Positions 8,769 through 50,331 of a stretch of 50,366 nucleotides of DNA are shown here, piece by piece; positions within the stretch are counted from its first letter, which is position 1, and each line of letters starts with the position of its first letter. The notes under the pieces were generated by a model, which did no database searches, was not told the origin of the DNA, and worked only from the letters and a program-made list of their open reading frames with translations. Source of the stretch: Bacteroidota bacterium. Its GTDB lineage: Bacteria > Bacteroidota > Bacteroidia > Bacteroidales > PUMT01. A program made the translations under genes and the position numbers. The DNA lies in assembly GCA_003554865.1 (NCBI GenBank), contig PWHJ01000174.1, forward strand, positions 1-50,366. The letters are read 5' to 3'.

Positions 8769-11700
8769 TCAGACCTTTATTCCCATGAACAAAACATCGT
8801 CAACCTGTTCGTTCTTCCCTTTCCACAGATAAAAATTGTTTTTAATGTATTTATGCTGTTCCTCCAGAGGTTTTTCACAAATGTCTGCCAGAAGATTCCT
8901 GAGGCGCACCATTTTAAATTTTTTTCCGTAAGGCCCGCCAAACTGGTCGGGGAACCCGTCTGAGAACATATAGACAATATCATCAGCATTTAGGTTGAAT
9001 ACCTGGTTATCAAAGGTTTTATTTTCAATCATGAATCCCCCTATCGAATTCCTGCTTCCCCTTATGTAGATAAGCTCACCGTTGTGGAGGATTAAAATTG
9101 GACGCATTGCCGAGGCAAAGCGCATAACTTTGGTATTGACATCAATTTCGCATACAGTTATGTCCATCCCGTCAATAGAGTTCATGTCTGATTCAATATT
9201 CTGGTTCAATGTACTGGTTACCTCCCTGTCGAGTGTTTGAAGAACGTCGGCCGGGGAGTTGACTTCTTTGCGCATGCAGATGTCTTTTATCAGCGTGGTT
9301 CCTATCATTGACATAAAAGCTCCCGGAACACCGTGGCCTGTTGAATCTGCACATACGATAATGAATTTATCACGGTTTACCATGTCAAACCAGTAAAAAT
9401 CACCGCTTACAATATCTCTTGGCTGGTAAAAGACAAACGATGAACTGAAATTTTCCCTCAGTTTTTCAAAAGAGGGCAGAATGCTTGCCTGGATACGTTG
9501 GGCGTAATTTATGCTGTCAGTTATATCGCGGTTCTTGGTTTCAATTTCATCTTTTTGTTTCCTGACCTCTTTTGTTCTTTTTGCCAGCTCATGCTCTATG
9601 CGTTCTTTCTCTTTTTTCAGCTTGCTTTCCCTTATTTTTATGTAGGTCCAAAAGAGAGAGCCTGTAAAAACTATAAGTGCCAGGTAGATATACCATTTTT
9701 TCCAGATAGGCTTGCTTATGGTAAGGTCTATCGCGAGGGGGATCTCGTTGTATAGCCCGTCAGAATTGTATGCCCTGAGAAGAAATGTGTAATCTCCATC
9801 ATCTATTCTCGGGTAATAAGCAAACTGATTAGTTGATTTTTCAGACCAGTCGAAATCGTATCCCTCAAGTTTATAGCTGTATTTGACCTGTTGCGGATTA
9901 GTATAGTCCAGTCCGATGAAATCAATGTTCAATTTGTAGCTGCCGTAGGGAAGGCTTACCGTTTGGGCATAATCGGTCTCCTCATCCGATATCTGCATAC
10001 CGGTTATATTTAGTTTTGGAGGGCTTTCCGGTTTTTTTTCTTTTGAGCCGTCAAATATTATCAATCCTTCGGTTGTCCCGAACAGCAATTTTTCTTCCCC
10101 GTTGCCGAAGAAACTGTTGTAGTTTGCATTGCCTCTTATCCCATTGTCAGTGCCGTATAATCTGATAAAATTATTATCGGTGTTTATACGGCTTATACCC
10201 TGCCTGTGTCCCACCCATACATAACCCTTTGAATCGGCTGTAATACCGTAGCAGTAATTGCTTAAAAGCCCCTCGTCTGTTGTAAAATGCCTGATGGTAT
10301 CGGAGTATATTTTTATGATCCCGTTTCCCTCGGTGCCGGCCCACAAATCTCCGTTCACATCTTCGGTCAGCGATGTAAAATTCAGCTCCCTGTCGGCCAG
10401 GTTTATATCTCTTTGTGTTGTCAGGTTTACAAGGCTCCTGCTTCTTGTTGCTGCCCATATGTTATTTTCGCTGTCTTTGTAGAGGTAACGTATGAAATTG
10501 TGCGGGAGCCCCTGATCAGTGCCGAATCGTTTTCTTTCGCCTGTATCCGGGTTGAAACTGAATGCCCCGCCGTTTGTTCCGATCCAGAGCTTATTGTTTT
10601 GCTTGTCAAAAAGGATTGAGTTGACAGAGTTTTCCGGAGTGTTTCTTGATGAGAAAAAAAGGGTGGCCCGTTTTTTTTGAGTATCGATCCTGTATAATCC
10701 GCTTTCATGTGTTCCTGCCCACAGAACACCTTTTTCTCCCGGTGTGAGTGCGGTTATGCGGTCGGCCGGCAACCCGTGTGCTGAGGTGAAAAATTCGCTT
10801 TTTCCCGTTTTACCGGGATTCATTTTAAGAATACCTTTTTCACCTCCAAGCCAGTAAGAATCTTCGCTATGTGTTAATGAGAGAATATTTTTCCCGAATC
10901 TTGCGTCCGGTTCAGGGTAAATTCTCAGGGACTCGTCAGTTAGCATAGATATGCCGCCCCCGTACGATGCGAACCAATACCTCTCTTCATTGTCCTGAAA
11001 CACCTGTCTGATCATGTTACTTGCAAGGCCGTTTTGTTCGTTCAGCCGGGTTACTTTTTTTGTTTCACCGTTGGTGGTGGTTATTTTAAAGACCCCTTCG
11101 CCGAAAGTGCTTATCCAGATATTATTTTCATTATCTGAGAAAATATGCTGCACATTTGCATCTGAAAGTCCCCATTTCTCCCCGGTATTAACAACATGGA
11201 ACGAATCGGTTGAACTTATTTCGGGCAGCAGGCTGTATACACCCATGTTTTCTGTACCTGCCAGCAGTGTACCCGAGTTTTCCATATATTCGATTGCCTG
11301 TATTTTGGCAGAGGGTATTGCATCGATTTTTTTTATTATTTCAGGAGCCTCCCCATGCTTATATTTATAAAGGTAAAGTCCGTCAACTGTGCCCGCCAGA
11401 AGCCTGTTTTCAGCAGAAAAAGAGATTGAGGAAAGCAGCATGCCGCTGAACTGCTCTTTAAAAACCTCAATTTCCATGTCATTGTTAATCCTTATAAGTC
11501 CGTCGCCATGACTTGCGGCAAGAATATTTCCCTGACCATCTTCCTCAAAACCGGCTATGGTGCTGCCAACATTTTCAGCCTCCAATATTCTGAAATCTTT
11601 TCCCTCATAAACGACTATTTGTCCGTTGTTGAAACCGAACCACATCCTTTCATCTTTGTCTGTATATGTTGCAGTTGCCAGATCAGCGGGTATTTGCCCT

Positions 11701-12020: not shown

Positions 12021-12989
12021 TTATTCCCTTCTTTTTACCCCGATGCTGTATTTATACTGCGGGACTCCTCCTATCGGTACGACAAAGAACGGCTGCAGAT
12101 CGCCGTACTGGTTCCTGATGTTTATTACTGCGTTGTTGTTTCTTATAAGGGGAGATTCCTGCTTATGAAACTGAATATCCAGGGTTGCACCCTGCTCTTC
12201 GGGAAATATTTCAAATTCGTCTACCACCCAGTCATCATCACCTGAGACTGTAAGTAATTTTCCCTGACGAACTGTTGACGCTACCCTTATTTCTCCGTCG
12301 TAATCCCAGTCGAAGTTAGAGACCTTGAGTGATACGGTTTCTTCATCTATGAAGGGGTAGATGTGGGAAACCTGCTGAGGGTCGTTCCAAAGGCGAAAAG
12401 TATAACTGTAGGCAAAGGCGTTGCCTCCTTCCACCGGTATATTCTCATCCGGATCGGTTGACAAGTAATATCTGTAAAGATTACCGTCATCACCTTCAAC
12501 TCCCTGGGCAATTACTTTGAATATATGTCCGCCGAATTTTTCAACATACTCCCCTTCCATAGGGTTGAACGGACCGAATGTGTACCAGGTTTCGAGATAT
12601 TCCGGTTCGCTGCCGAAAGTTTTGGATGCCATTTGATTGCCGCTCCGGTAATTACCCACAGGCTCCGTTTCCTGTGCATCCGGGTGAGACCACGCTTCGT
12701 TTCCTCCGTAAATGGAAAAATTGACCCTTGTGTTCCATACCCCGTTGATTTCATCTATACTGCTTCCCGTTCCCGGATTAAATACCCTGATATATACAGG
12801 ATCGGTATGTTCTTCGGGAACAAGGAAAAAAAATGTTTGTGTGAAATTGTCATCTCCCCAGGAAGGACAGGCATCGCCGCCAAAAGTGACCAGGTAGGGT
12901 ATGTTTTCCTCCTCGGTTGGTACCGGCTGGGCGGGTGTGTGCCCTATCAGGGCGGCAAGGAAGAGTGAGATTAAAATAATTTTTTTCAT
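12021..12989 (-). CDS. Secreted protein of unknown function, last gene of T9SS cassette
   Basis: I do not recognise this 322-residue protein. Residues 1-20 form a standard signal peptide (MKKIILISLFLAALIGHTPAQ) with no lipobox cysteine. The rest is rich in aromatic and acidic residues with beta-type alternation and few helices (examples YLVTFGGDACPSWGDD, YIRVFNPGTG, YSYTFRLWNDPQ), consistent with two beta-sandwich-like halves. There is a single cysteine in the mature part. It starts 22 bases after the PD40/PKD gene and is the last of four same-strand genes with a type B T9SS substrate, so it is probably a secreted or periplasmic partner of that system. No known sorting domain is visible at its C-terminus. 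Confidence 0.7.
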   Translation of the reverse strand: MKKIILISLFLAALIGHTPAQPVPTEEENIPYLVTFGGDACPSWGDDNFTQTFFFLVPEEHTDPVYIRVFNPGTGSSIDEINGVWNTRVNFSIYGGNEAWSHPDAQETEPVGNYRSGNQMASKTFGSEPEYLETWYTFGPFNPMEGEYVEKFGGHIFKVIAQGVEGDDGNLYRYYLSTDPDENIPVEGGNAFAYSYTFRLWNDPQQVSHIYPFIDEETVSLKVSNFDWDYDGEIRVASTVRQGKLLTVSGDDDWVVDEFEIFPEEQGATLDIQFHKQESPLIRNNNAVINIRNQYGDLQPFFVVPIGGVPQYKYSIGVKRRE

Positions 12990-13011
12990 TTTTTACGGTA
13001 TTATAACAGAC

Positions 13012-14409
13012 TTATTTTTCTTCAATTATTACAATTGTTTTGTAAACACATTCTTTTCGGGTGCCGAATGTCGGATCGGGCACCGATTTTACTCCAAGGG
13101 TTACATCATAAATTCCCGGGTATTCATAGATGTGTTCAGTCACTTCACCGGAAGCTTTTGTACCGTCTCCCATATCCCAGTAATATTCATCTATCTGAAA
13201 GTTTTTCAGGAATGTGTATTTACTGTCAAACCTCACGGTTTCACCTGCAAAGGCCGTGTCAACCGATGTAATGTAGGGTTGTTCAATATTTTCCAGCAGG
13301 AAATTGTAGGAAGCCTTGTTTGCCATTACCTCGCCGGTCAGCTTGTCAATTACGTTTAGCCTGACAAGGTATGTTCCTGTGGTGTCAAAGCAATGCTCAG
13401 CCTCCAGTCCATCAATTTTTGTACCGTCTCCCATATCCCATTCAAAATAGAAGCTTGCAGTATCAACATCCCCCCTCTCTTCGTAAAAAACAAAACAGTA
13501 GTCATTCAGTTGGAGACTGTCGCAGTTGCTGAAAACAGGAAATGTTGAAAAAAAGGAGTAGATGTTGTCAACCTCATCCCTGTTTGAAGAAAAATATCCT
13601 TCATCAAAATTGTCGCTTGCTACATAACCGAAATCGTCGTATTCTGAATTAAAGGGCCCGGGAAGGGCAATGGGGTTTATCCACCTGTTATTTCTGCGCT
13701 CGGTGTAATATATGTCAAGGTTTCCTTTTTCATTATGGTCTGTTGAAAAATAGAGCCTTCCCGCGGGATGAATAAAGGGGAACTTCTCGTTGCCGGGTGA
13801 ATTGACCGTTTCGCCAAGATTAACCGGCGGCCCCCATGCATCGCCATCTACGGAGCAAACGTATATGTCGAGTCCGCCTTGCCCTCTGGGCATATCGCTT
13901 ACAAAGTAAAGTTCACTTCCGTCGTCGCTTATGCTGGGGTGCCCTACATTATAGTCAGCGCTGTTATAGGGGAAAGGCTTTGCCTCACTCCAGCTTCCGT
14001 TGATATATCTGGAGATGAATATGCCCAGGCGTGCCTGTTCACCATCATTTGCCGGAATATTACGTGTGAAGTAGATCGTGTTTCCGTCGGGGGAAAAGCT
14101 TACCGGTCCGTCATGATAATTGCTCGACAGGTTACGTGAAAGCAGTTTTGGGGAGGACCATTTCTCTTCTTCTTCTTTGCCGGCATGGTAAATATTGAAA
14201 AAATTTTCCCCTTCCATTGTAAGTCTTGAAATCATGAAGTTTCTCGTGCGGTTGGATGTAAAAACTATGCCGTTTTTGTAAAAAACCGGTGAAAAATCAT
14301 CAAAACGGTCACTGCTTACCGGCAAGCGCTCGATACTGTAGAATTCCTGGCTTATTGCCGCGCAGGTACAGAGAAGTATGGCTGCTGTAAGTGTTATTCT
14401 TTTGCCCAT
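13012..14409 (-). CDS. Exported PD40-repeat and double-PKD protein without OmpA domain
   Basis: The reading frame is open back to 14460, but the ATG at 14409 starts a proper signal peptide (MGKRITLTAAILLCTCAAIS) and avoids a 47-base overlap with the upstream gene, so I chose it (465 residues). The N-terminal part holds about five PD40/WD40-like beta-propeller repeats (FSPVFYKNGIVFTSNR, VSFSPDGNTIYFTRN, HPSISDDGSELYFVSD, FIHPAGRLYFSTD, GYFSSNRDEVDN). Two PKD domains follow (FYFEWDMGDGTKIDG and EYYWDMGDGTKASG). Homologues next to PorP/SprF genes usually end in a peptidoglycan-binding OmpA domain; here the protein stops after the second PKD domain at a normal stop codon. It probably acts in the periplasm or at the outer membrane with the two upstream genes. 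Confidence 0.83.
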   Translation of the reverse strand: MGKRITLTAAILLCTCAAISQEFYSIERLPVSSDRFDDFSPVFYKNGIVFTSNRTRNFMISRLTMEGENFFNIYHAGKEEEEKWSSPKLLSRNLSSNYHDGPVSFSPDGNTIYFTRNIPANDGEQARLGIFISRYINGSWSEAKPFPYNSADYNVGHPSISDDGSELYFVSDMPRGQGGLDIYVCSVDGDAWGPPVNLGETVNSPGNEKFPFIHPAGRLYFSTDHNEKGNLDIYYTERRNNRWINPIALPGPFNSEYDDFGYVASDNFDEGYFSSNRDEVDNIYSFFSTFPVFSNCDSLQLNDYCFVFYEERGDVDTASFYFEWDMGDGTKIDGLEAEHCFDTTGTYLVRLNVIDKLTGEVMANKASYNFLLENIEQPYITSVDTAFAGETVRFDSKYTFLKNFQIDEYYWDMGDGTKASGEVTEHIYEYPGIYDVTLGVKSVPDPTFGTRKECVYKTIVIIEEK

Positions 14410-14413
14410 CTTA

Positions 14414-15325
14414 TTAAAAATATCTGGGGTTAACCGCCCTTGAACGGTAAATAAAGTCATATATAATCATTATTTCATGTGACCCGTTGTTGTACTTGTT
14501 CAGTGCACCGGTAGAATAGTCGTATGTATAGCCAATTCTGAGACGCTCGTTTACCTGGAATTTCAGCAGCCCAACCAGCGTGTCTTCAATTCTGTAAGAG
14601 CCGCCAATCCAGAGGAAATCTCCGAAAATAAAGGAGAGGTTGGCATCAAGCTGAACAGGATTTTGCACATCATATTTAACAAGTATGGAAGGTTTCGCTT
14701 TAAATCCCCCCCTTCCTATAACTACTCCGGAGGTAAAAAGGTAATTGTAATTATTATGGTCGTGGTATACCTTTACATTTCCGTTGCTTAAACTGTCGCT
14801 CAGGAACAACGGTATTGAAGCTCCAGTAAAGAAATGGTTTGTGTGGTAGTATACCCCGAACCCGAAATTGGGTATAATATCCTGGGAAGACTCAGTAAAG
14901 GAGATGTCCCCCGGATCATGCACCCTTACCTTGTTCCAGTTTGCGTTTCTTATGGTCAACCCTCCCTTTAAACCCAATGCAAGCCTTCCGCTGCCGGTGT
15001 TGAACCGCCAGGCGTAGTTGGAAAATATGCTTATATTGTTTCTAACATCTACCTGCTCATTGAATATCAGGAGTCCAAGAGCAACTTTCTGGTTTCTCAG
15101 GGGGGTGTGCATGCTGAAAGTCTGGCTTTCGGGAGCGCCTTCAAACCCCACCCATTGGTTGCGGTATCCGGCCGATATGTTCAGTGCGTCGCGGCTTCCT
15201 GCATATGCAGGGTTCAGGGCCAGTCCGTTCAGCATGTACTGGCTGTATACAGGAAAAAGGTGCTGCGAGTTGATATTGCAGTTTAAAAATATAAAGGCGC
15301 CTATTATGAGAATCAGTTTGTTCAC
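14414..15325 (-). CDS. PorP/SprF family type IX secretion outer-membrane protein
   Basis: An outer-membrane beta-barrel of 303 residues. It has a signal peptide (1-20) and the family hallmark near the mature N-terminus: FPVYSQYMLNGLALNPAYAG, followed by RNQWVGFEGAPESQTFSMH. The family includes SprF of Flavobacterium johnsoniae, which is needed for secretion or attachment of the adhesin SprB. Members encoded beside type B substrates are thought to be dedicated partners. Here the upstream gene, 15 bases away, encodes exactly such a substrate, and the PD40/PKD gene begins four bases after the stop, so the three are very likely one transcript. Assigning it as PorP itself, the core T9SS component, is less likely given this context. 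Confidence 0.9.
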   Translation of the reverse strand: MNKLILIIGAFIFLNCNINSQHLFPVYSQYMLNGLALNPAYAGSRDALNISAGYRNQWVGFEGAPESQTFSMHTPLRNQKVALGLLIFNEQVDVRNNISIFSNYAWRFNTGSGRLALGLKGGLTIRNANWNKVRVHDPGDISFTESSQDIIPNFGFGVYYHTNHFFTGASIPLFLSDSLSNGNVKVYHDHNNYNYLFTSGVVIGRGGFKAKPSILVKYDVQNPVQLDANLSFIFGDFLWIGGSYRIEDTLVGLLKFQVNERLRIGYTYDYSTGALNKYNNGSHEIMIIYDFIYRSRAVNPRYF

Positions 15326-15340
15326 TTGCTGCTATTTAAT

Positions 15341-18300
15341 TTACCGTCTTATTATTATAAATCCCTTATACTCATGTTTGTTGTCCACCTCCAGTATATA
15401 ATAATAGGTGTCGTTGGGCAGGGGAGTGCCTTGATGGTTCCTGCCGTCCCAGTCGTTTTGATAATTAACCTCTCTGTAGACCTCGTTTCCCTGTCTGTTG
15501 AAAACAACCAGCTTGTTTGTCTGCGAGTTTTCAAGCCCCCTGATCACAAAATAATCGTTCAGTCCGCTGTTGTTCGGCGAAAAACCGGTCGGTGCATCAA
15601 GATCGCTTACATTTATACTTACCTGATCAGTCTCAGCAGGGCAAACCCCGTTGATAACGCTCCATCTGAATATATTCTCGCCCAGCTCCAGATTTGTTAC
15701 CTGCGTTGAAGGGTCGTTTTCGTTTACAATAGCACCTCCCCCCGATACCAGTTCCCATGAGCCCGCTCCGGTTTCAGGGGGTGTTGCTTCAAGAAATGTT
15801 TGAAAATCAAATTGAAGCGATTGATCTTCTCCGGCATCCGCAGCAGAAGGCTTACGGTAGAAAGTAACTTCTGTTTCGTCTGAGGCTGTGCATTGCCAGT
15901 TAGTTTCCCTCCACACGAAACGGTGTGTTCCGTATTCCGTTATTGTAGCGGTTGCATTGTAATGGCTTGAATCTGGCGAATATTCAGCCTCCGTGTTTAC
16001 CGAACTCCAAAACCCTTCACCGAAGCTTGGGATGGAATTAAGATCGTGTGAGGGGCCGCAGGCTTCCCCGTCAGCCCCTGCATCCGGTGTTGGGTAGCCA
16101 TAGACGGTAACTGTTGCCGTGCCGGTCATATCCTCCTCTCTTGCCTCACATCCGTGTGAATCGGTAAGGGAAAGAATTATATATTCGATTGCTTCAGACT
16201 GTTCTGTTGTTTCAGGTTGTGCTGTAGCCTCAAGTGAGTGGTCAGATATATCCTTTATTGTTTCGGTTTGAGTACCGTCTGTAAATTCAATCTCCCAGGG
16301 TCCTTCTCCAAAGAAGTTGAATGAAAGTGCAGTTTCTGAACCGCTGCATACTGTGTCGGCTGATTCTTCGATATGAACACCTGAAAAGGGGTGAAAATCT
16401 ACATGCACCGTATTGCTTGTATCTATGCAGGCATTGTCAGGTCCCGATTTCACAATGCGCCTGAAATATGTGGGATCGGTTAAGGAGGTATATTGAAGAT
16501 TCACCTCCTCATTGTTGTCGCCTGCAGGATGCCAGTTTTCCAGGTCAGTGCTGTTTTCCCAATTGTATCTGTAATCCGGTTCATCGCCCCCCTCAGGTGT
16601 GGAGCCTTGAAACTCTTCAGGAGGGGTGTCGAAGCAGATAGTTTGATGATCACCGATCACATTTTCCGTTATCGCCGGTAATACAGATACTTCCAGGTAC
16701 CCCGATATATCGGCACACATCCCCGAATTGACCACTCTGCGGTAGTAGGTGGTCTGAGCTATAACATCAAGGGGTAGTGATTCCATATTATTCGGCTCGG
16801 TTGCATTTGACCAGTCGCTCAAATCTTGGCTTTGTTCCCAGAGGTAATCATATGTCCCGGTTCCTCCTCCTGTTGTGGCCGCCGAATGAAGCTCGTCCGG
16901 AGCTGTGCCCTCACATACAGTCTGTTCGGGCGATATGATGTTGCCGGTTATAAGTGGGTGCACATTAATTGTCAGTACCTGGGATGTATCGGCACATTTT
17001 CCTGAAGTGACGATCCGGCGGTAGGTGGTTGTATCTCCAAGCGGTCCGGGCTGGTAATGAATGCCTGTGTTGTCCTCCACAGCCTCACTCCATTGAGAAT
17101 CATCGTTTTTTTCCTCCCAGTTGTAATTGTAAATCCCTGTTCCTCCCTGCAGAGGTTCTTCGCCTGTTAATGGAGCCGGAGTATTTTCCTCACAGATGGT
17201 TTGCTCCTCACTTATCAGGTTACCGAGTATTTTAGGTTGTACAGTTATCTCCACCACATTGCTTGAGTCAATTACCTGATCGGGGTCGTTGTCTTTTACT
17301 ACTCTTATAAAAGAGGTTGTTTCAGTTAAAGCCGGTGGCTGGTAATCTTTTTCCTGCTCTCCCGGAATTATTTCCCACTCATCTGAAGATTCGCTTTTCA
17401 TGAACCACTCATAATAGTATCCTTCAACAGGGTGGGGTGTACCTCCTTTAGGTTGTGTGCCTTCGAGCAGTCCGGGCACCTGTTCTTCACAAATTACCTG
17501 ATCATACTTAATTCCGTTAAAAAGAAAACCGTTGAGGGTTATTTCAAGATCGGCGAACTCTCCGCCCGAATTTCCGTCGGTTGATCCGTATGCATCTTTG
17601 CTGGGTTCGCTGCCGGGTTCAAAGTATCTGCCTGACCTTCCCCCGCCAAGATTAGTTGTTACATTTCCCGGGAAGGGGTGTATTGTAAGAACTGTTCCGC
17701 CTCCGCCGCCTCCTCCCGGACCGGATCTCATTTCATGGATCACGTCTCCTCCTTTGCCGCCTCTTGACTGTACTGTAAGGCTGTTGTTGAAGTTGTCCAC
17801 AGCGGTTATTATGGTTCCCCCGCCCCCTCCTCCGCCTGCACCGGCGGTTGCTGTGTCTGAAACGCTGCCTCCGTCGGAGATTATCCTGTGACCGTTTCCG
17901 CTTATATTGTCGGCTATTATAATTACCATCCCTCCTGCGTTACCACCGGCAGTGGCATTTTTTCCGTTATATGAAGTTGAGCCTCCACCGCCCCCGGCCA
18001 TAAAAAAACGGCTTCCGATATATTCATCAGTGAAAAAATCATCCATCCTTTCCCCCGGAGCTCCTCTCATGCTTTCATCCGCTTCGCATGATTCAAATTC
18101 AAAGCCACCCAGTCCGCCCTGCCCGAAATTGGATCCTCCCCCGCCGCCTGATAAATGACCGTTTCCACCTCCGCCTGCACTTGATAACCTGCCTTTTCCA
18201 TGTACGAAGTTGTTACCTATAGGGTACTGCTGATCTCCAGACCAGTAATAAGTTACCGGCCCTTCTCCTTTCTTTCCGCTCTTTTGCGAACCTTGCGGAA

Positions 18301-18898
18301 AGTGAAAGGGGGAATAAGCCCCGGGGTTTTCCGAGGAGCATTCATATTCATCCAGGTCGGTTACCCCGCCGCCTGAAAAACCGGTGGAGGTAGCGTCGAT
18401 ATCAGCTTCCATGGTGAGTTTGTTGCTTACTATAAGTGCAATGACACCTCCTTTTTCTCCGTCCCATTTCCCGGCAGTCAGTTTCCCGCTTACCGTGGCG
18501 TTTTTGTATCCCCTTGTTTTTACCAGTTGTACTGTTTGGTCGGCATTGTAGGAGCTGACAAGATCACGGGTAAATTTTACATTGTTATCGTTGATCTGAT
18601 CAACGATCATGAACTCGTAATTTCCGGCATTATTGAAAAATTGCTTTTTGCCCCAGTTTATTCCCTCCTCGCTTTCATCCAGTGTGATACCCATACCTTT
18701 CATCTGGATGATAAGCACAGTATCGCCCGGGGCAAATATTCCCGGATCGGATACCGATACCGCATCATCTCCGTTTACAGAAGTTACAGCTGAATAGCTG
18801 TTTATTACACCCGAAATCTCGGTTTGGGCATACATTAAAGATTCTGAAAACATCAACAAAAGCGAAATGCAAAAAAGTAATAAACCGGAAGTTTTCAA
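15341..18898 (-). CDS. Large secreted surface protein with Ig-like repeats and T9SS type B sorting domain
   Basis: A 1,185-residue secreted protein, first gene of a four-gene operon. Residues 1-24 are a signal peptide. About 240-420 is extremely glycine-rich, with runs of five to seven Gly. About 460-840 contains four copies of an Ig-like unit of roughly 90 residues, each opening with xQTxCE(E/G) or a close variant and ending TTYxRRVVxSGxCADTS. Two more beta domains follow. The final 88 residues match the gliding-motility-associated type B C-terminal domain (APTGFSPNNSGLNDYFVIRG, then VVFNRQGNEVY, ND-DG, LPNDTYYYILE, ending GFIIIRR). Type B domains direct export by T9SS and depend on SprF-like proteins, one of which is encoded next. 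Probable cell-surface adhesin or sheath component; the ligand is unknown. Confidence 0.9.
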   Translation of the reverse strand: MKTSGLLLFCISLLLMFSESLMYAQTEISGVINSYSAVTSVNGDDAVSVSDPGIFAPGDTVLIIQMKGMGITLDESEEGINWGKKQFFNNAGNYEFMIVDQINDNNVKFTRDLVSSYNADQTVQLVKTRGYKNATVSGKLTAGKWDGEKGGVIALIVSNKLTMEADIDATSTGFSGGGVTDLDEYECSSENPGAYSPFHFPQGSQKSGKKGEGPVTYYWSGDQQYPIGNNFVHGKGRLSSAGGGGNGHLSGGGGGSNFGQGGLGGFEFESCEADESMRGAPGERMDDFFTDEYIGSRFFMAGGGGGSTSYNGKNATAGGNAGGMVIIIADNISGNGHRIISDGGSVSDTATAGAGGGGGGGTIITAVDNFNNSLTVQSRGGKGGDVIHEMRSGPGGGGGGGTVLTIHPFPGNVTTNLGGGRSGRYFEPGSEPSKDAYGSTDGNSGGEFADLEITLNGFLFNGIKYDQVICEEQVPGLLEGTQPKGGTPHPVEGYYYEWFMKSESSDEWEIIPGEQEKDYQPPALTETTSFIRVVKDNDPDQVIDSSNVVEITVQPKILGNLISEEQTICEENTPAPLTGEEPLQGGTGIYNYNWEEKNDDSQWSEAVEDNTGIHYQPGPLGDTTTYRRIVTSGKCADTSQVLTINVHPLITGNIISPEQTVCEGTAPDELHSAATTGGGTGTYDYLWEQSQDLSDWSNATEPNNMESLPLDVIAQTTYYRRVVNSGMCADISGYLEVSVLPAITENVIGDHQTICFDTPPEEFQGSTPEGGDEPDYRYNWENSTDLENWHPAGDNNEEVNLQYTSLTDPTYFRRIVKSGPDNACIDTSNTVHVDFHPFSGVHIEESADTVCSGSETALSFNFFGEGPWEIEFTDGTQTETIKDISDHSLEATAQPETTEQSEAIEYIILSLTDSHGCEAREEDMTGTATVTVYGYPTPDAGADGEACGPSHDLNSIPSFGEGFWSSVNTEAEYSPDSSHYNATATITEYGTHRFVWRETNWQCTASDETEVTFYRKPSAADAGEDQSLQFDFQTFLEATPPETGAGSWELVSGGGAIVNENDPSTQVTNLELGENIFRWSVINGVCPAETDQVSINVSDLDAPTGFSPNNSGLNDYFVIRGLENSQTNKLVVFNRQGNEVYREVNYQNDWDGRNHQGTPLPNDTYYYILEVDNKHEYKGFIIIRR

Positions 18899-19099: not shown

Positions 19100-22000
19100 T
19101 TACTTGTTAAGGTCATTTTTTTCATAAAGCGGGAGCATTAAGTAAAAATTGCTGCCTTTGCCGGGTTCGGTATCGTACCATATAGATCCCCCGGCACTTT
19201 CTATTATTTTTTTCGATATAGCCAGTCCCAGTCCCATACCACCTGATTTTGTAGTAAAATTGGGTCTGAACATTTTATCTTTCATATCCTCAGGTATTCC
19301 TGTGCCTGTATCGGAAATTTTGACCCTTGCGTGTCCTCCTGCCTTGTCAACTTCCAGGTTTACCGCGCCATTGCTGTTTTTAGGGATTGATTGAACAGCG
19401 TTTTTTATAAGGTTTATAAAAACACGGTTTAACTGCTTTTGGTCGATGTAAACAAAAACTTCTCTGTGGCCGTTGAAATTCTTTTTAAACTCAATTTTCT
19501 CAGCATTTATAAACAACTCAAGGCTGTTTTCAACCTCTTTTAAAATATCTGTTTTTTCAGGATTAGCATGAGGCATTTTTGCAAAATTTGAAAATTCAGT
19601 TGCAATAGAGGAGAGGTTGTCTATTTGGTCTATGAGGGATTTACAGGTTTTTTTAATCACTTCTTCCCTGCAGGGATGCCCGTCCTCCCAGGCCCTTTGC
19701 ATATGTTGTATACTAAGCTTCATTGGAGTTAGCGGGTTTTTTATCTCGTGGGCAATTTGTTTTGCCATTTCCCTCCATGCTCCTTCGCGTTCAGATTTTG
19801 CAAGTAGTTCGGCACTTTTTTCAAGCTCCGTTACCATCCTGTTATAATCTTTTACAATGTCGCCGATCTCGTCGTCCCCCCTGTAGCTGATTTGTTCGTT
19901 TTTTTGTTCAAGTCTGATTTTCCGGAGCTTGTTCTGTATTAACTTCAGCGGTTTGGTTATCTGGTTGGAGACAAAAATTGCTGTTACAATCGTTATCAGT
20001 ATAAGCAATGCGTAAATATTTACAACCGCAACCACAACGGTGTAAATCTCCCTTTGCAGCTCCCCCTGCCTGGTGAAGTAGGGGAGATTGAGGTATGCAA
20101 GCACCTCGTTGTCTGCATTGGTAAACGGTACATATGCTGAAAGGTAGGATAGTTCTCCGATAGTTTCCCTGTGCAAAAATCTGGGATTATTTTCAATGAC
20201 CATTTTAGAATATGCTCCGGGGCTCATTTTTTCACCCGTAAGGTTCAGCTCGAAAATTTCAGGGCGGGAGGTAGCGTAAAGGTTACCGTCAGGGTCGTAC
20301 AGGTTTATATCGGTATAAAAAACATTTGAGAGATCTGTCAGTAAACCGCTCATATAGTTTTGCAGTTCAGGTGTGAGCTCTTCTTCCAGCATGAATTCAT
20401 TTTCCAGTTCAACAAGAACTGATTGTATCTTCTCGGTTATGTTTTCCTGGTGCTTATTTTCAAATTGTCTTATATTATAGTATATAGTTCCGGCCCCAAC
20501 TATTATAAGCGACAATAAAACGATTGATATCATTGACAATTTTATACGGTTTTTAAGTGTCAGCCGGAAGTGGCTTCGACGAAGGGGGAGGTTGTAAACA
20601 AGTAGTGCAATTCCCAGCAGGGAGAAATAGAAAATAAAAGTATAGGAAAAAGAGGTGAGCAGGTTTATAGTCCTTGTTTCAGGCTTGCTCAGAATAATTG
20701 TGTTATCTTCATCGGCTCTGTATATCAGATGGTTGTAGCCGTCATGCTCAAAAAAAGTGTAAGTTTCATCATTTTGTTGAGTGTATTGTTGTTTCAGGGC
20801 ATAGGGGAAATCGCCGTAACGCGTAATTAGGCGGTTATTATGGTACTTGGCGTATGAGTAGTTTCTTAATGCCTGATGCTCGGTTAGCTCCCCCTCTATA
20901 AGCAATTCCGGATATCCCAGTTGCTCGGTTGCAATTCTTGAGTCTAGAGATATGTAAACGGTTTTTTCCTCGGGATAGTGGTCGTAACTATAGGTAACTG
21001 TTCCAAGGTAGCTTATACGTCCGTTAAGGTTATCCAGGAAGAAGAAATTTGATTCCGGGTTGATCCTGATACCGTAATCATAGATCATATCTTCGAAGAA
21101 GGTATAGCAATCAACCAGTTCCTGAGTATCTTCCAGGTAAATGTTGTAATCAGGGCCACAAGCAGCAACCTGCAGCTCGTATTTTCTGAAGAAGCTGTTG
21201 AAGTAGTTTTCTTCAAGATAATCGAACAGCTCATATTCTTCGTACTTCATGCTGCCCAGCATCTCATACAAAACCGAGTCGGCTGCAATCTCCTTTTCAA
21301 TATCCTCCAGAAGAAATTCTGCAACCTGGTCACGTTCATTTGCAAGGTTTACAACAAGAACTCTCCTGATATTCCTTTCCTTTTCCCTGCTTTTATCTGT
21401 TACAAAATACAATGTAAAAAGTGAAATTAAAAAGACCACGAAAACAAGGTTTGGAAATTTGTAGCTGTAGCGGTAGTACCTTATATAAGCTGTAAAAGAG
21501 ATAACTAATATATAAAACAGAACCGTGGGGAGATCCAGCGAATATCCGGAAGCATAATAAATCACAGCTCCGCCGCATGATATGACTGCAGTTATTAAAG
21601 CAAATACCTTAATATCAATAAGGTTTGATGCAAAATGTACTATGTGGTCAGCTAACAAAAGAAAAGTTGCAAAAAGAAAAGCGATTGAAATATATGCAAG
21701 TAAGCTGTATTGGTTGAGATAAAAGAAATTGTGAACCTGAAGCTGTATACTGGAATTTATAATCAGCCCCTCGAAAAGATAATGGAAATAAAGGAATATA
21801 AATACAAGGAAAGAGGTCAGCAAGCCGATCTTTGCCATATTCTTTCCCCGGCTTTTCGTATAGGTGATCCTGAAATATTTAGAGAAAAGCAGGGAAATAA
21901 AGAACAGGAGAACCGAGTTTATCAACAGATCGCCCAGTGATGCAAATGTAAAGGATTTACCGTAAAGATGCGGAGAAAAAAGGGTAAAAACGGAAGAAAC

Positions 22001-22798
22001 GTCAGGGAAGTCTGTTTGAAGCATGAGCCACCTGAGCATCACAATTATACCGGCAATTGCTGCAAACCATATGTTTTTGGCTTTTTGTGTGTTGAGTTTT
22101 AAAATATGGAAGCTTTTATAAAAAAACAGAAGGAGCAAAGAGAATGATATAAAAAACAGAGTGATACAAACCCTTGTGAATAAAAGGCTGAATGCCGGAG
22201 GAGAAGGAGGGATAAGTGAAAACAGGTATTCCCCTTTTTTGTTTTCTACCGGAAAACCTGAGCGGGGAGAAAATTTTATCTCCACATTAGGGTTCAGGTC
22301 GAAATCCCTGTGAAAGGTATTTGAGAGAAATTTGTTCTCAAAGAGATAGTCGTTCTTAATTAGTATAAGTGCCGCGAGAGTAATATTACCGGTCTCTTTT
22401 TTGCGTCTGACATACCATGAGTTTCCGCTGTGATAGACAGGTCGGCTTGTCTGTATAACCTCTTCATATGAGTGTTCCGGTATATCGCTGCTGTTCCAGT
22501 ACCTGAGGTTCTCATCTTTATAAACCAGAATTACGATACCTTCCTGATTACGCATGTTGTAGTAGTGCCTGCCCGCTTTTTCAGCAAAATGAGTCAGGCC
22601 GGAGTCACTTATTTCACGGGAGATGTTGTTAAGCATTTTTTCTGTTTTTTTCTCCTTTTCATGGAGCCTGTCTTCAAAATTTTCTGCATCGACCGATTGC
22701 AGCTCAAGTTTTTCAAGATTTCTTTCAACTGCAAATGCAATGATCATTGCAATAATTGCAACAATCAAAAGCCAGTATTTTTTGAGAATAGACCTCAT
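19100..22798 (-). CDS. Large multi-membrane HAMP sensor histidine kinase (NtrY-like)
   Basis: A 1,232-residue inner-membrane kinase. A first helix (8-24) and an extracytoplasmic segment (25-200) lead to a cluster of about eight helices (203-467). A second extracytoplasmic domain (about 470-710), helices near 713-735 and 753-774, a third sensor segment (775-917) and a last helix (918-942) follow. Then come HAMP (about 945-1000), HisKA with AKQIAHEIKNPLTPMKLS (phosphorylated His about 1017) and the ATPase boxes NLIKNAVQS, DTGTGIP and GMGLGLAISKKI. The NPLTP H-box is of the NtrY/NtrB type. No response regulator is adjacent, so it is an orphan. It lies 62 bases downstream of rlmH on the same strand. 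The signal sensed is unknown. Confidence 0.88.
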   Translation of the reverse strand: MRSILKKYWLLIVAIIAMIIAFAVERNLEKLELQSVDAENFEDRLHEKEKKTEKMLNNISREISDSGLTHFAEKAGRHYYNMRNQEGIVILVYKDENLRYWNSSDIPEHSYEEVIQTSRPVYHSGNSWYVRRKKETGNITLAALILIKNDYLFENKFLSNTFHRDFDLNPNVEIKFSPRSGFPVENKKGEYLFSLIPPSPPAFSLLFTRVCITLFFISFSLLLLFFYKSFHILKLNTQKAKNIWFAAIAGIIVMLRWLMLQTDFPDVSSVFTLFSPHLYGKSFTFASLGDLLINSVLLFFISLLFSKYFRITYTKSRGKNMAKIGLLTSFLVFIFLYFHYLFEGLIINSSIQLQVHNFFYLNQYSLLAYISIAFLFATFLLLADHIVHFASNLIDIKVFALITAVISCGGAVIYYASGYSLDLPTVLFYILVISFTAYIRYYRYSYKFPNLVFVVFLISLFTLYFVTDKSREKERNIRRVLVVNLANERDQVAEFLLEDIEKEIAADSVLYEMLGSMKYEEYELFDYLEENYFNSFFRKYELQVAACGPDYNIYLEDTQELVDCYTFFEDMIYDYGIRINPESNFFFLDNLNGRISYLGTVTYSYDHYPEEKTVYISLDSRIATEQLGYPELLIEGELTEHQALRNYSYAKYHNNRLITRYGDFPYALKQQYTQQNDETYTFFEHDGYNHLIYRADEDNTIILSKPETRTINLLTSFSYTFIFYFSLLGIALLVYNLPLRRSHFRLTLKNRIKLSMISIVLLSLIIVGAGTIYYNIRQFENKHQENITEKIQSVLVELENEFMLEEELTPELQNYMSGLLTDLSNVFYTDINLYDPDGNLYATSRPEIFELNLTGEKMSPGAYSKMVIENNPRFLHRETIGELSYLSAYVPFTNADNEVLAYLNLPYFTRQGELQREIYTVVVAVVNIYALLILITIVTAIFVSNQITKPLKLIQNKLRKIRLEQKNEQISYRGDDEIGDIVKDYNRMVTELEKSAELLAKSEREGAWREMAKQIAHEIKNPLTPMKLSIQHMQRAWEDGHPCREEVIKKTCKSLIDQIDNLSSIATEFSNFAKMPHANPEKTDILKEVENSLELFINAEKIEFKKNFNGHREVFVYIDQKQLNRVFINLIKNAVQSIPKNSNGAVNLEVDKAGGHARVKISDTGTGIPEDMKDKMFRPNFTTKSGGMGLGLAISKKIIESAGGSIWYDTEPGKGSNFYLMLPLYEKNDLNK

Positions 22799-48348: not shown

Positions 48349-50331
48349 ATGAGGATTCGTTTCATTTCGGTTTGTTTTCTGGTTTTTATTTTTTCATTTC
48401 AAACCTTGTCGGGTCAGTCAAGGCGAGTTGAGAGGGCCAATGAGGCTTATGAGGCGGGGAAGTATTACGAGGCTATAGAGTTGCTAAGGGAGGCCTACAC
48501 TACTGCAAATGATTTTGATTTGCGAACCGAAATGATATTCCGCCTTGCAAAAAGCTATTATAAGATAAGGAATGCTCCTCAGGCTGAGTTGTGGTTCAGA
48601 CACTCGGTCAATCGTGACTACCCGGATCCGGTTGTCCACTACTATTATGGCCAGGCACTTAAAATGAATGAAAAGTATGAGGAGGCGCTCGAGCAGTTTG
48701 AGATTTATGTTGACCTCGTTCCGGATGACCCCCGGGGTGAAAGCGGCATTGTTTCATGCAGGCTTGCAAAGGAATGGACGGAAAATCCGACCCCGTATGT
48801 AGTTGAAGAAATGAATTTTTTCAACTCCCGGCAAAGTGATTACAGTCCGGCTTTTGCCAGGGATGATTATTCAGTTGTTTTTTTTACATCTTCAAGGGAA
48901 AGCGACCTCTCAGATGAAAAACACGCTGTAACGGGAGAATATTTTTCCAATATTTTTATGAGCCGCCGGGACAGGCAGGGGCAATGGAGCACACCCGAAC
49001 CTGTTGAAGGTAATATCAACAGTGCATTTGAGGAGGGAACGCCTTCGCTCAGCGGTGATTATTCCACAATGTATTTTACAAGCTGCAGACCTTCAAGAGG
49101 TACGGCAGGATGTCAGATTTATGTTTCCTCCCGCCGTCGTGAAAGATGGAGGCGCCCCAGTGAGCTTGAACTTGCCCCTGACTCATTGATTGTTGCCCAC
49201 CCTGCAATATCTCCCGATGATCTCACACTGTACTTTACATCGGATATGCCTGGTGGATACGGGGGCAAGGATATATGGAAAGTTACCCGTAGAAGCAGGG
49301 ATGATTCATGGAGTGAACCGGTAAATCTCGGGCCGGAAATAAATACAAAAGGTAACGAGGTTTTCCCTTATGTTCACCCTGACGGTGCTCTTTATTTTTC
49401 CTCTGACGGTCATCCTGGTATGGGAGGTCTTGATATATTCAGAGCTGAAAAGGATGATGAGGGTAACTGGAATGTGAATAATATGGGGTATCCTGTAAAT
49501 TCGCATGCAGATGATTTTGGAATTGTCTTTGAAGAGGAAAAGGAAAGAGGGTACTTCAGCTCCAGCAGGGGCAGGGGGAATGTTGACAATATTTACTCTT
49601 TCCATCTTCCGCCTGTTGTGATCAATGCTGAAGGGGTGATAAAAGACCAGGAAACAGGGGAGCCGCTTCCGGGTTCAGTTGTGACCATGGTTGGCAGTGA
49701 CGGCACCATAATGGAAATGGATACCCGGGAAAATGCAAGTTTTCGCTTTACCATCCTGAAGCCTGATGTAGACTATATTTTTATGGCATCCATGGAAGGA
49801 TATTTGACCGGGAGAAAATCGATCACTACAAGCGGGTTGGATCGCAGCAAGGATTTTAAAGTTAATATAGAAATACAGTCATATGAAAGCCCCATTGAGC
49901 TGCCTGATATTTTATACGATTTTGCAAGATGGGAGCTTCGACCAGAGTCAAAGGATGCGCTGGACCGTCTTGTGAAAACGCTCAAGGACAATCCCCATGT
50001 AGTAATTGAACTGGCATCGCATACAGATTCCCGCGGAGAAGAGCAGTTCAATATGGAATTATCCCAGAAAAGAGCACAATCTGTTGTCAATTATCTTATA
50101 GAAAGCGGCATAGAGCAGGAAAGACTTGTTGCAAAGGGGTACGGTGAGACGCGTCCCAGGCAGGTGGATGAAGAGATGTCATCAAAGTTTCCTTTCCTGC
50201 CTGAAGGTGAGGTGTTGACCGAAGAATTTATCAATTCCCTCCCGGAAGAGGAGCAAAGGGAAGCGGCACACCAGATAAACAGGAGAACCGAATTCGAGGT
50301 TATTCGTGACGATTACGGCCAGCAGCAATAA
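48349..50331 (+). CDS. PorE-like OmpA-family protein (TPR, PD40 propeller, carboxypeptidase-like domain, OmpA)
   Basis: A 660-residue exported protein. A signal peptide (1-22, no lipobox) is followed by TPR repeats (about 28-140), a PD40/WD40-like propeller (about 155-415, for example YSPAFARDDYSVVFFTSSR, HPAISPDDLTLYFTSDMPGG, YVHPDGALYFSSDGHPGMGG), a carboxypeptidase-regulatory-like domain (about 425-510) and an OmpA peptidoglycan-binding domain (about 520-652, ELASHTDSRGEEQFNMELSQ, with D560 and R575 as diaminopimelate contacts). This is the architecture of PorE, a T9SS component that binds peptidoglycan. Paralogues with the same domains are common, and PorE is, as I recall, a lipoprotein, so orthology is not certain. 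It complements the OmpA-less protein at 13012. Confidence 0.85.
   Translation: MRIRFISVCFLVFIFSFQTLSGQSRRVERANEAYEAGKYYEAIELLREAYTTANDFDLRTEMIFRLAKSYYKIRNAPQAELWFRHSVNRDYPDPVVHYYYGQALKMNEKYEEALEQFEIYVDLVPDDPRGESGIVSCRLAKEWTENPTPYVVEEMNFFNSRQSDYSPAFARDDYSVVFFTSSRESDLSDEKHAVTGEYFSNIFMSRRDRQGQWSTPEPVEGNINSAFEEGTPSLSGDYSTMYFTSCRPSRGTAGCQIYVSSRRRERWRRPSELELAPDSLIVAHPAISPDDLTLYFTSDMPGGYGGKDIWKVTRRSRDDSWSEPVNLGPEINTKGNEVFPYVHPDGALYFSSDGHPGMGGLDIFRAEKDDEGNWNVNNMGYPVNSHADDFGIVFEEEKERGYFSSSRGRGNVDNIYSFHLPPVVINAEGVIKDQETGEPLPGSVVTMVGSDGTIMEMDTRENASFRFTILKPDVDYIFMASMEGYLTGRKSITTSGLDRSKDFKVNIEIQSYESPIELPDILYDFARWELRPESKDALDRLVKTLKDNPHVVIELASHTDSRGEEQFNMELSQKRAQSVVNYLIESGIEQERLVAKGYGETRPRQVDEEMSSKFPFLPEGEVLTEEFINSLPEEEQREAAHQINRRTEFEVIRDDYGQQQ

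Follow-up and report, generated by a model that had tools for sequence, protein, structure and literature searches.

We found that a surface cassette of the type IX secretion system (T9SS) in a Bacteroidota bacterium (GenBank assembly GCA_003554865.1, contig PWHJ01000174.1; the 50,366-nucleotide stretch analyzed here is called the window) ends in a gene for a sensor phosphatase. All five genes lie on the reverse strand. P1 (15341–18898) encodes a 1,185-residue T9SS type B substrate with a Gly-rich N-terminal domain, a central region, and a CHU_C sorting domain; P2 (14414–15325) encodes a PorP/SprF-like outer-membrane barrel; P3 (13012–14409) encodes a PorE-like PD40 propeller with two PKD domains; P4 (12021–12989) encodes a protein of an unnamed family, predicted to be all-beta and secreted; and P5 (8769–11933) encodes the 1,054-residue sensor phosphatase. 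The original prediction had described the first four genes, whose coordinates and strand proved correct, and had overlooked P5, which starts 87 nucleotides (nt) downstream of P4. The five-gene arrangement is real and widespread. In the best reading of it, to which we give a probability of roughly 0.55, a surface complex of type B, SprF, and PorE-like proteins is plugged into the sensor phosphatase, so that a T9SS-displayed protein would be coupled to a cytoplasmic serine/threonine phosphatase through a physical relay.

P5 begins with an N-terminal hydrophobic stretch, judged by eye (a hydropathy scan flagged such a segment in 71 of 102 P5 proteins, the window’s not among them). Reg_prop and Y_Y_Y domains follow, then one transmembrane segment (residues 749–767; 9633–9689 by the hydropathy scan), a linker that looks by eye like a coiled coil, and a SpoIIE/PP2C catalytic domain (8775–9371; PF07228, 65.8 bits). 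The same scan placed exactly one transmembrane segment after residue 600 in 96 of the 102 proteins. The ectodomain resembles solved sensors of the hybrid two-component system (HTCS) type (E 1.1e-56; PDB ID codes 4a2l, 3v9f, and 3ott), and the output domain resembles a solved serine phosphatase structure (E 7.6e-29). Among the SpoIIE-type P5 proteins, D845, D863, and D992 are invariant (100 of 100), and D1045 and D1046 are identical in 99 of 100; we take these residues to be metal-binding motifs. The output is swapped in some loci. It is SpoIIE in 100 of the 102 full-length proteins and a kinase in L052 and L119, and in a third kinase-output locus, L054, the sequence breaks off after HisKA begins. 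These kinases were assigned by Pfam (L052 and L054) or by our own profiles (L119), and the three loci fall within one ten-row clade (support 99).

P4 is the constant gene partner of this sensor, and the gene pairing is well supported. We compared 90 distinct P4 loci, excluding the window. On the downstream side of P4, 86 of them extend for 300 bases or more, and in all 86 the gene that comes next matches the Reg_prop profile, at a median gap of 11 nt. The sensor also adjoins P4 in 33 of 34 further loci, some of which share contigs with the earlier ones. P4 is split into two open reading frames (ORFs) in L256, and the sensor is likewise split in L236. The first relatives search had found P4 relatives in 22 of 60 genomes, including the bacterium’s own, and a scan of named genomes kept the best 80 of 446 P4 relatives, a set that is biased to close relatives and titled throughout as metagenome-assembled genomes (MAGs). 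The cassette is also carried by two MAG records (L105 and L114) whose titles name Bacteroides fragilis and Chitinophaga pinensis; these species assignments look doubtful.

The pairing also holds at the level of whole genomes. P4 is present in 58 of 393 genomes of the order, and a P5-ectodomain profile at E ≤ 1e-150 matches 56 of the 393, every one of which also has P4; the 335 genomes that lack P4 gave no match. In the two P4 genomes missed by the profile, the sensor lies in two ORFs (G455) or P4 lies 572 bases short of where the contig stops on the sensor side (G647). This near-complete co-occurrence bears on the idea that the gene order was merely inherited by descent and has no functional meaning. 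A kinase gene upstream of the cassette does keep its place as well, at 55 of 67 checkable cassette loci. However, P4–P5 adjacency is kept where the kinase, SprF, and P3 are missing, and it is also seen in multiple copies within a genome and in a different order of the class (L181), which together with the co-occurrence makes meaningless inheritance very improbable. The upstream kinase itself is a large sensor histidine kinase (HAMP, HisKA, HATPase) encoded on the same strand at 19100–22798, and it is possibly a sixth cassette member.

P4 had originally been called an unknown secreted protein. The first half of that description stands, with no Pfam or NCBIfam family matching at E 0.1; secretion is predicted from a signal peptide recognized by eye, as were the signal peptides of the other cassette proteins, and the hydropathy scan for an N-terminal segment did not flag the window’s P4. 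A sequence search of the PDB gave one match, at E 0.67. The AlphaFold2 model (mean predicted local distance difference test, pLDDT, 84.6) is almost wholly beta, and its residues 22–179 and 193–294 each align to beta-sandwich domains (best VIA Z 5.4, best Foldseek TMq 0.27). Foldseek and VIA gave weak matches only and no clear fold relative; some of the weak matches are carbohydrate-binding modules. D227, D229, D231, and G232 are invariant across 69 sequences and look like what we assume to be a calcium loop.

That P4 belongs integrally to the cassette, as the original prediction held, is supported by the gene neighborhoods. The gene upstream of P4 in the 90 loci encodes an OmpA-less PD40/PKD protein in 77, one with OmpA in 6, and one with a cut OmpA end in 1; SprF lies there directly in 2 loci, other ORFs in 3, and a contig end in 1. 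The further suggestion, that P4 takes over from OmpA in tying the surface complex to the cell wall or envelope, gains something from the 77 loci in which P4 directly follows an OmpA-less P3. Nevertheless, we consider it quite improbable. OmpA is present in nine P4-adjacent P3 proteins, P4 and the sensor occur without adjacent PD40, SprF, or type B genes, and P4 matches no known domain. A lipobox-like match is found in 4 of 121 P4 proteins and no lipobox in the window’s, no internal transmembrane segment was detected by the hydropathy scan in 120 of 121, and the sensor adjoins P4 in every readable locus except one with a truncated P4 (L255). As a substitute for OmpA, P4 was rejected on account of the nine loci that have both and the loci with P4 but no P3.

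P3 is a PorE relative that has kept the propeller and lacks the rest. Residues 39–303 of its longer ORF match positions 145–416 of the PorE model NF052230 (189.4 bits, E 9.3e-56), below the model’s cut-off of 600, and the beta-propeller is of the PorE type. The domain search bore out the original description of a PD40 protein with two PKD stretches; it gave no match in P3 to OmpA, TPR, or carboxypeptidase-regulatory-like domains. The lipoprotein signal of PorE was not found either, a simple pattern giving a lipobox-like match in 1 of 100 P3 proteins. The start at 14409 (residue M18) is favored over that at 14460 and is probably correct because most relatives’ alignments begin at M18. A frameshifted OmpA domain after 13012 was considered and rejected. 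The PD40 stop lies 22 nt from P4, and the lengths of complete OmpA-less relatives cluster at 459–500 residues, apart from three (365, 382, and 612); on these grounds, a sequencing error that hides OmpA, which the original prediction had allowed for, is very unlikely.

The absence of OmpA is genuine and extends across the lineage. Of 121 distinct P4 rows, 100 have an adjacent P3 without OmpA and 9 have one with it; the remaining slots are empty in 5, occupied by SprF in 2, and unscorable in 5 (labels for L041, L076, L140, and L256 were corrected by hand, and L076 has two short ORFs between P3 and P4). Pfam bears out the OmpA domain of L053, L181, and L243; in the other cases it was assigned by our own two-sequence profile. 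In the window’s clade of the P4 tree, a quick build with long outgroup branches (90 rows, support 89), 88 rows have an OmpA-less P3, one has none, and one is unscorable, whereas OmpA is present in 9 and missing in 9 of the other 27 tree rows. One variant (L244) combines TPR, PD40, and PKD domains without OmpA. Double cassettes occur at L053 (7946–18001) and L141, where type B and SprF genes and an OmpA-bearing P3 precede a second type B and SprF, P4, and P5; that of L141 is cut at its first SprF.

The original prediction had alternatively let the cassette borrow the PorE-like protein encoded at 48349. This gene, in the same window, encodes a full ordinary PorE (NF052230, 722.6 bits versus 600), and we found no evidence that it serves as the link. 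BLAST detected no separate PorE-like gene besides the PD40/PKD proteins in 25 P4 neighborhoods, and the existence of OmpA-bearing P3 versions means that the anchor can sit in P3 itself. It is therefore hard to credit that the complex borrows this PorE as a wall anchor with P3 as an accessory, although L252 offers a parallel of sorts. In that locus, a PD40 gene with OmpA (16183–18000) lies on the other strand ∼4 kb beyond a P4–P5 pair that has no P3 of its own, and there a PorE might be borrowed. With that locus set apart, the candidate was dropped as unsupported.

The two surface genes are what they had been taken for. The sorting domain of P1 (residues 1101–1185; 15344–15598) scores 56.5 bits against TIGR04131 (cut-off 35) and 84.9 bits against CHU_C, which bears out its assignment as a type B substrate. 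Its N-terminal part resembles AgmC_N (NF047640, 171.9 bits, under the 275 cut-off), and it is present in 61 of 89 P1 proteins, the window’s included (BLAST without a low-complexity filter). The Gly-rich N-terminal domain (17519–18838) was modeled by AlphaFold2 with a mean pLDDT of 91.9 and a predicted template-modeling score of 0.92, and comparison of the model with the PDB gave no convincing structural match. P2 scores 234.5 bits against TIGR03519 (cut-off 90.55), in agreement with its identification as a PorP/SprF-like barrel. Its C-terminal tail has no Cys, and among 79 cassette-locus barrels the last 40 residues lack Cys in 78 and contain Cys-x-Cys in none. In gliding-type SprF, by contrast, a Cys-x-Cys in the C-terminal tail bonds GldK (PMC12635249). 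A SprF–GldK disulfide link was considered for P2 and found unsupported, since the window’s SprF tail has no Cys.

From these parts, we infer the cell locations, physical contacts, signal direction, and phosphatase substrate as follows. The T9SS would export P1, which the carrier barrel P2 would retain on the surface. P3, as a PorE-type propeller stripped of the OmpA portion that binds peptidoglycan, would dock beneath P2 in the periplasm, and its PKD domains would meet the secreted P4. P4, in turn, would be the dedicated partner of the HTCS-like P5 ectodomain. A change at the surface, such as ligand binding, pulling, or the presence or loading of P1, could alter the geometry of a P5 dimer through the transmembrane segment and linker and thereby switch the SpoIIE phosphatase, whose likely substrates would be STAS anti-anti-sigma proteins. 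A more ambitious form of this proposal is tentative, at somewhat less than even odds in our judgment: a continuous five-protein relay across both membranes, in which wall anchors of the PorE type have been turned into signal transmitters and P4 is the converter, used in several Bacteroidota lineages in varied arrangements and with either a phosphatase or a kinase as output.

We looked for traces of these contacts in coevolution, measured as partial correlations of distance matrices over 50 representatives. Over 69 loci, the median pairwise identity of P4 was 57 percent and that of the P5 output 62 percent, compared with 36 percent for the P3 propeller and 34 percent for both SprF and the P5 ectodomain. 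The highest partial correlations were those between the C-terminal sorting domain (CTD) of P1 and SprF (0.52), P4 and the P5 ectodomain (0.43), and the P3 propeller and the P5 ectodomain (0.33); P5 ectodomain–output and SprF–P3 propeller followed at 0.32 each and P3 PKD–P4 at 0.23, and SprF–P4 gave −0.20. On these values alone, the chain seemed complete. As a control, the upstream kinase was added, which left 32 representatives of 47 loci. CTD–SprF (0.58), P3 PKD–P4 (0.36), and SprF–P3 propeller (0.34) then stood above every pair that involves the kinase. Coevolution thus lends more support to the outer half of the chain than to the P4–P5 contact.

Several results weigh against a coupled relay. 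In the kinase control, P4–P5 ectodomain (0.24) did no better than P5 ectodomain–kinase (0.26), P3 propeller–P5 ectodomain dropped to 0.13, and SprF–P5 ectodomain, which the chain does not predict, reached 0.26. The P4–P5 contact therefore rests on the gene pairing and not on coevolution. Because the order of the chain is also the order of the genes, linkage could mimic the chain. The genome-level test (56 of 58) was partly circular, as the P5 profile was built from P4-linked sensors, and it scored two candidates per genome at a threshold set by ourselves among related genomes. The pairing has exceptions: L255 has a truncated P4 and no sensor, and L289 (G681:C87, 3236–5598) has a P5-like gene without P4. 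In the window, the 87-nt gap between P4 and P5 holds one promoter-like site, at chance level. No STAS gene is linked to the cassette, and candidate STAS and HATPase_c_2 genes lie elsewhere in the genome. Finally, P4–P5 pairs without adjacent P3, SprF, or type B genes (L229, L230, L233, L235, and L252) show that some lineages can do without the T9SS part.

Each of the genomes with these five lone pairs has between 10 and 20 PorP/SprF matches, and a second P4 is present in two (G572 and G790), that of G790 within a full cassette (L245). A DUF1573 protein follows the sensor at the lone pairs L230 (7603–8694) and L233 (13373–14488), and proteins that look similar follow it in L249 and L252. The P5-like sensor of L289 is preceded by a 781-residue TPR protein and is cut by the contig end.

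Some of the same results would fit a co-regulated operon, in which P4 is a soluble ligand-binding protein that serves P5 alone, the T9SS genes are merely targets of the pathway, and there is no chain from SprF through P3. P4–P5 pairs do occur with no T9SS genes nearby, the weak matches of the all-beta P4 include carbohydrate-binding modules, and the closest solved relatives of the P5 ectodomain are HTCS-type sensors, which act on glycans in polysaccharide loci. The kinase control, moreover, does not single out P4–P5 coevolution. We nonetheless judge this explanation rather unlikely. P3 PKD–P4 keeps 0.36 in that control, the third highest value and above every kinase pair; P3 is PorE-like, and PorE binds PorP (PMC9143113); and distant P4 domains are fused to PKD arrays.

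These fusions came from a phylum-wide draw in which P4 matched 19 of 395 genomes, the bacterium’s own included. One of them, G104, belongs to another order of the class and has a full cassette with an OmpA-bearing P3 (L181). The 17 others hold 19 P4 matches, which lie in open frames 993 to 1,654 residues long, some of these frames being truncated at contig ends; E is below 1e-20 for 10 of the 19, and the rest are weak (that of L179 was not recovered by our own P4 profile). The distant P4-like domains that we fetched head PKD arrays, with 15 PKD stretches found by Pfam in the one tested. Treating the overlapping L164 and L182 as one leaves 17 distinct loci, among them L179. A kinase gene is encoded on the same strand no more than two genes away in 11 of the 17, and a SpoIIE gene is nearby in 3 (L164, L165, and L180), the labels coming from an earlier SpoIIE profile that included one kinase tail. 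Pfam confirmed the kinases in L165, L172, and L180 and the receiver-SpoIIE protein in L165. In L165 (1–9669), the P4-PKD array gene is accompanied upstream by a FecR/LysM/Ig protein, a Cache/HAMP kinase, and the receiver-SpoIIE protein.

With the P3 start at 14409, the gaps between P1, P2, P3, and P4 are 15, 4, and 22 nt, and a search of these gaps on the cassette strand revealed nothing that resembles a terminator. A sigma-70 promoter scan was at chance (22 sites versus 18.4 in shuffles, standard deviation 3.9), and a promoter pattern of the Bacteroidetes type matched twice in the window, neither time near the cassette, against a chance mean of 3.0. The genome has PorPKLMN and five SprF genes besides P2; BLAST found no PD40 protein of the P3 kind beside these five in the stretches read, two of which are near contig ends. 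It encodes four SpoIIE proteins, P5 included, as well as STAS and HATPase_c_2 proteins. The presence of PorPKLMN and of these unlinked STAS and HATPase_c_2 proteins counts in favor of the coupled reading.

If the coupling of the surface complex to the phosphatase is correct, many uncultured Bacteroidota could sense their own surface display, and PorE-like proteins without a wall anchor would be explained. T9SS type B surface proteins have mostly been discussed as adhesins that are anchored or moved. P4 is a defined family, and P3–P4 and P4–P5 are defined pairs that can be tested. Among the titles and abstract openings of open-licence PMC papers, we noticed none on a SprF cassette with a SpoIIE sensor.

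The cassette combines features of several known systems. Its Reg_prop and Y_Y_Y ectodomain is common to P5 and HTCS sensors. The latter combine a kinase, a receiver, and an AraC-type DNA-binding domain in a single polypeptide, whereas P5 has a SpoIIE output only (a kinase in three loci) and, unlike the HTCS, a protein partner encoded next door. The association of a type B protein, a PorP/SprF barrel, and a PorE-type propeller is that of PorE–PorP–PG1035 of Porphyromonas gingivalis and of Flavobacterium johnsoniae operons. PorE binds PorP, which holds the type B protein (PMC9143113), and the C-terminal part of PorE binds peptidoglycan (PMC9143113, PMC12618676). In F. johnsoniae, type B, SprF, and PorE-like genes are encoded together, as here, in five or six PorE-like neighborhoods (PMC9143113, PMC12618676). 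P3 departs from the published PorE systems in having two PKD domains and no TPR, carboxypeptidase-regulatory-like, or OmpA domain, a difference from the F. johnsoniae operons that bears out the original prediction, and in being followed by P4 and a sensor phosphatase. Signaling from a surface CTD protein to the cytoplasm, as we propose for the cassette, has a precedent in PorA of P. gingivalis, which is proposed to relay a surface signal to PorXY–SigP (PMC7712824). In that system the sensor is the kinase PorY, and the abstract names no SprF, PorE-like, or P4-like partner. P5 is likewise comparable to RsbU-type SpoIIE phosphatases, in which a linker leads to the PP2C phosphatase and phosphatases and kinases are believed to exchange sensor modules (PMC12143880). 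What sets P5 apart from them is its input, a predicted periplasmic HTCS-like ectodomain tied to a T9SS cassette.

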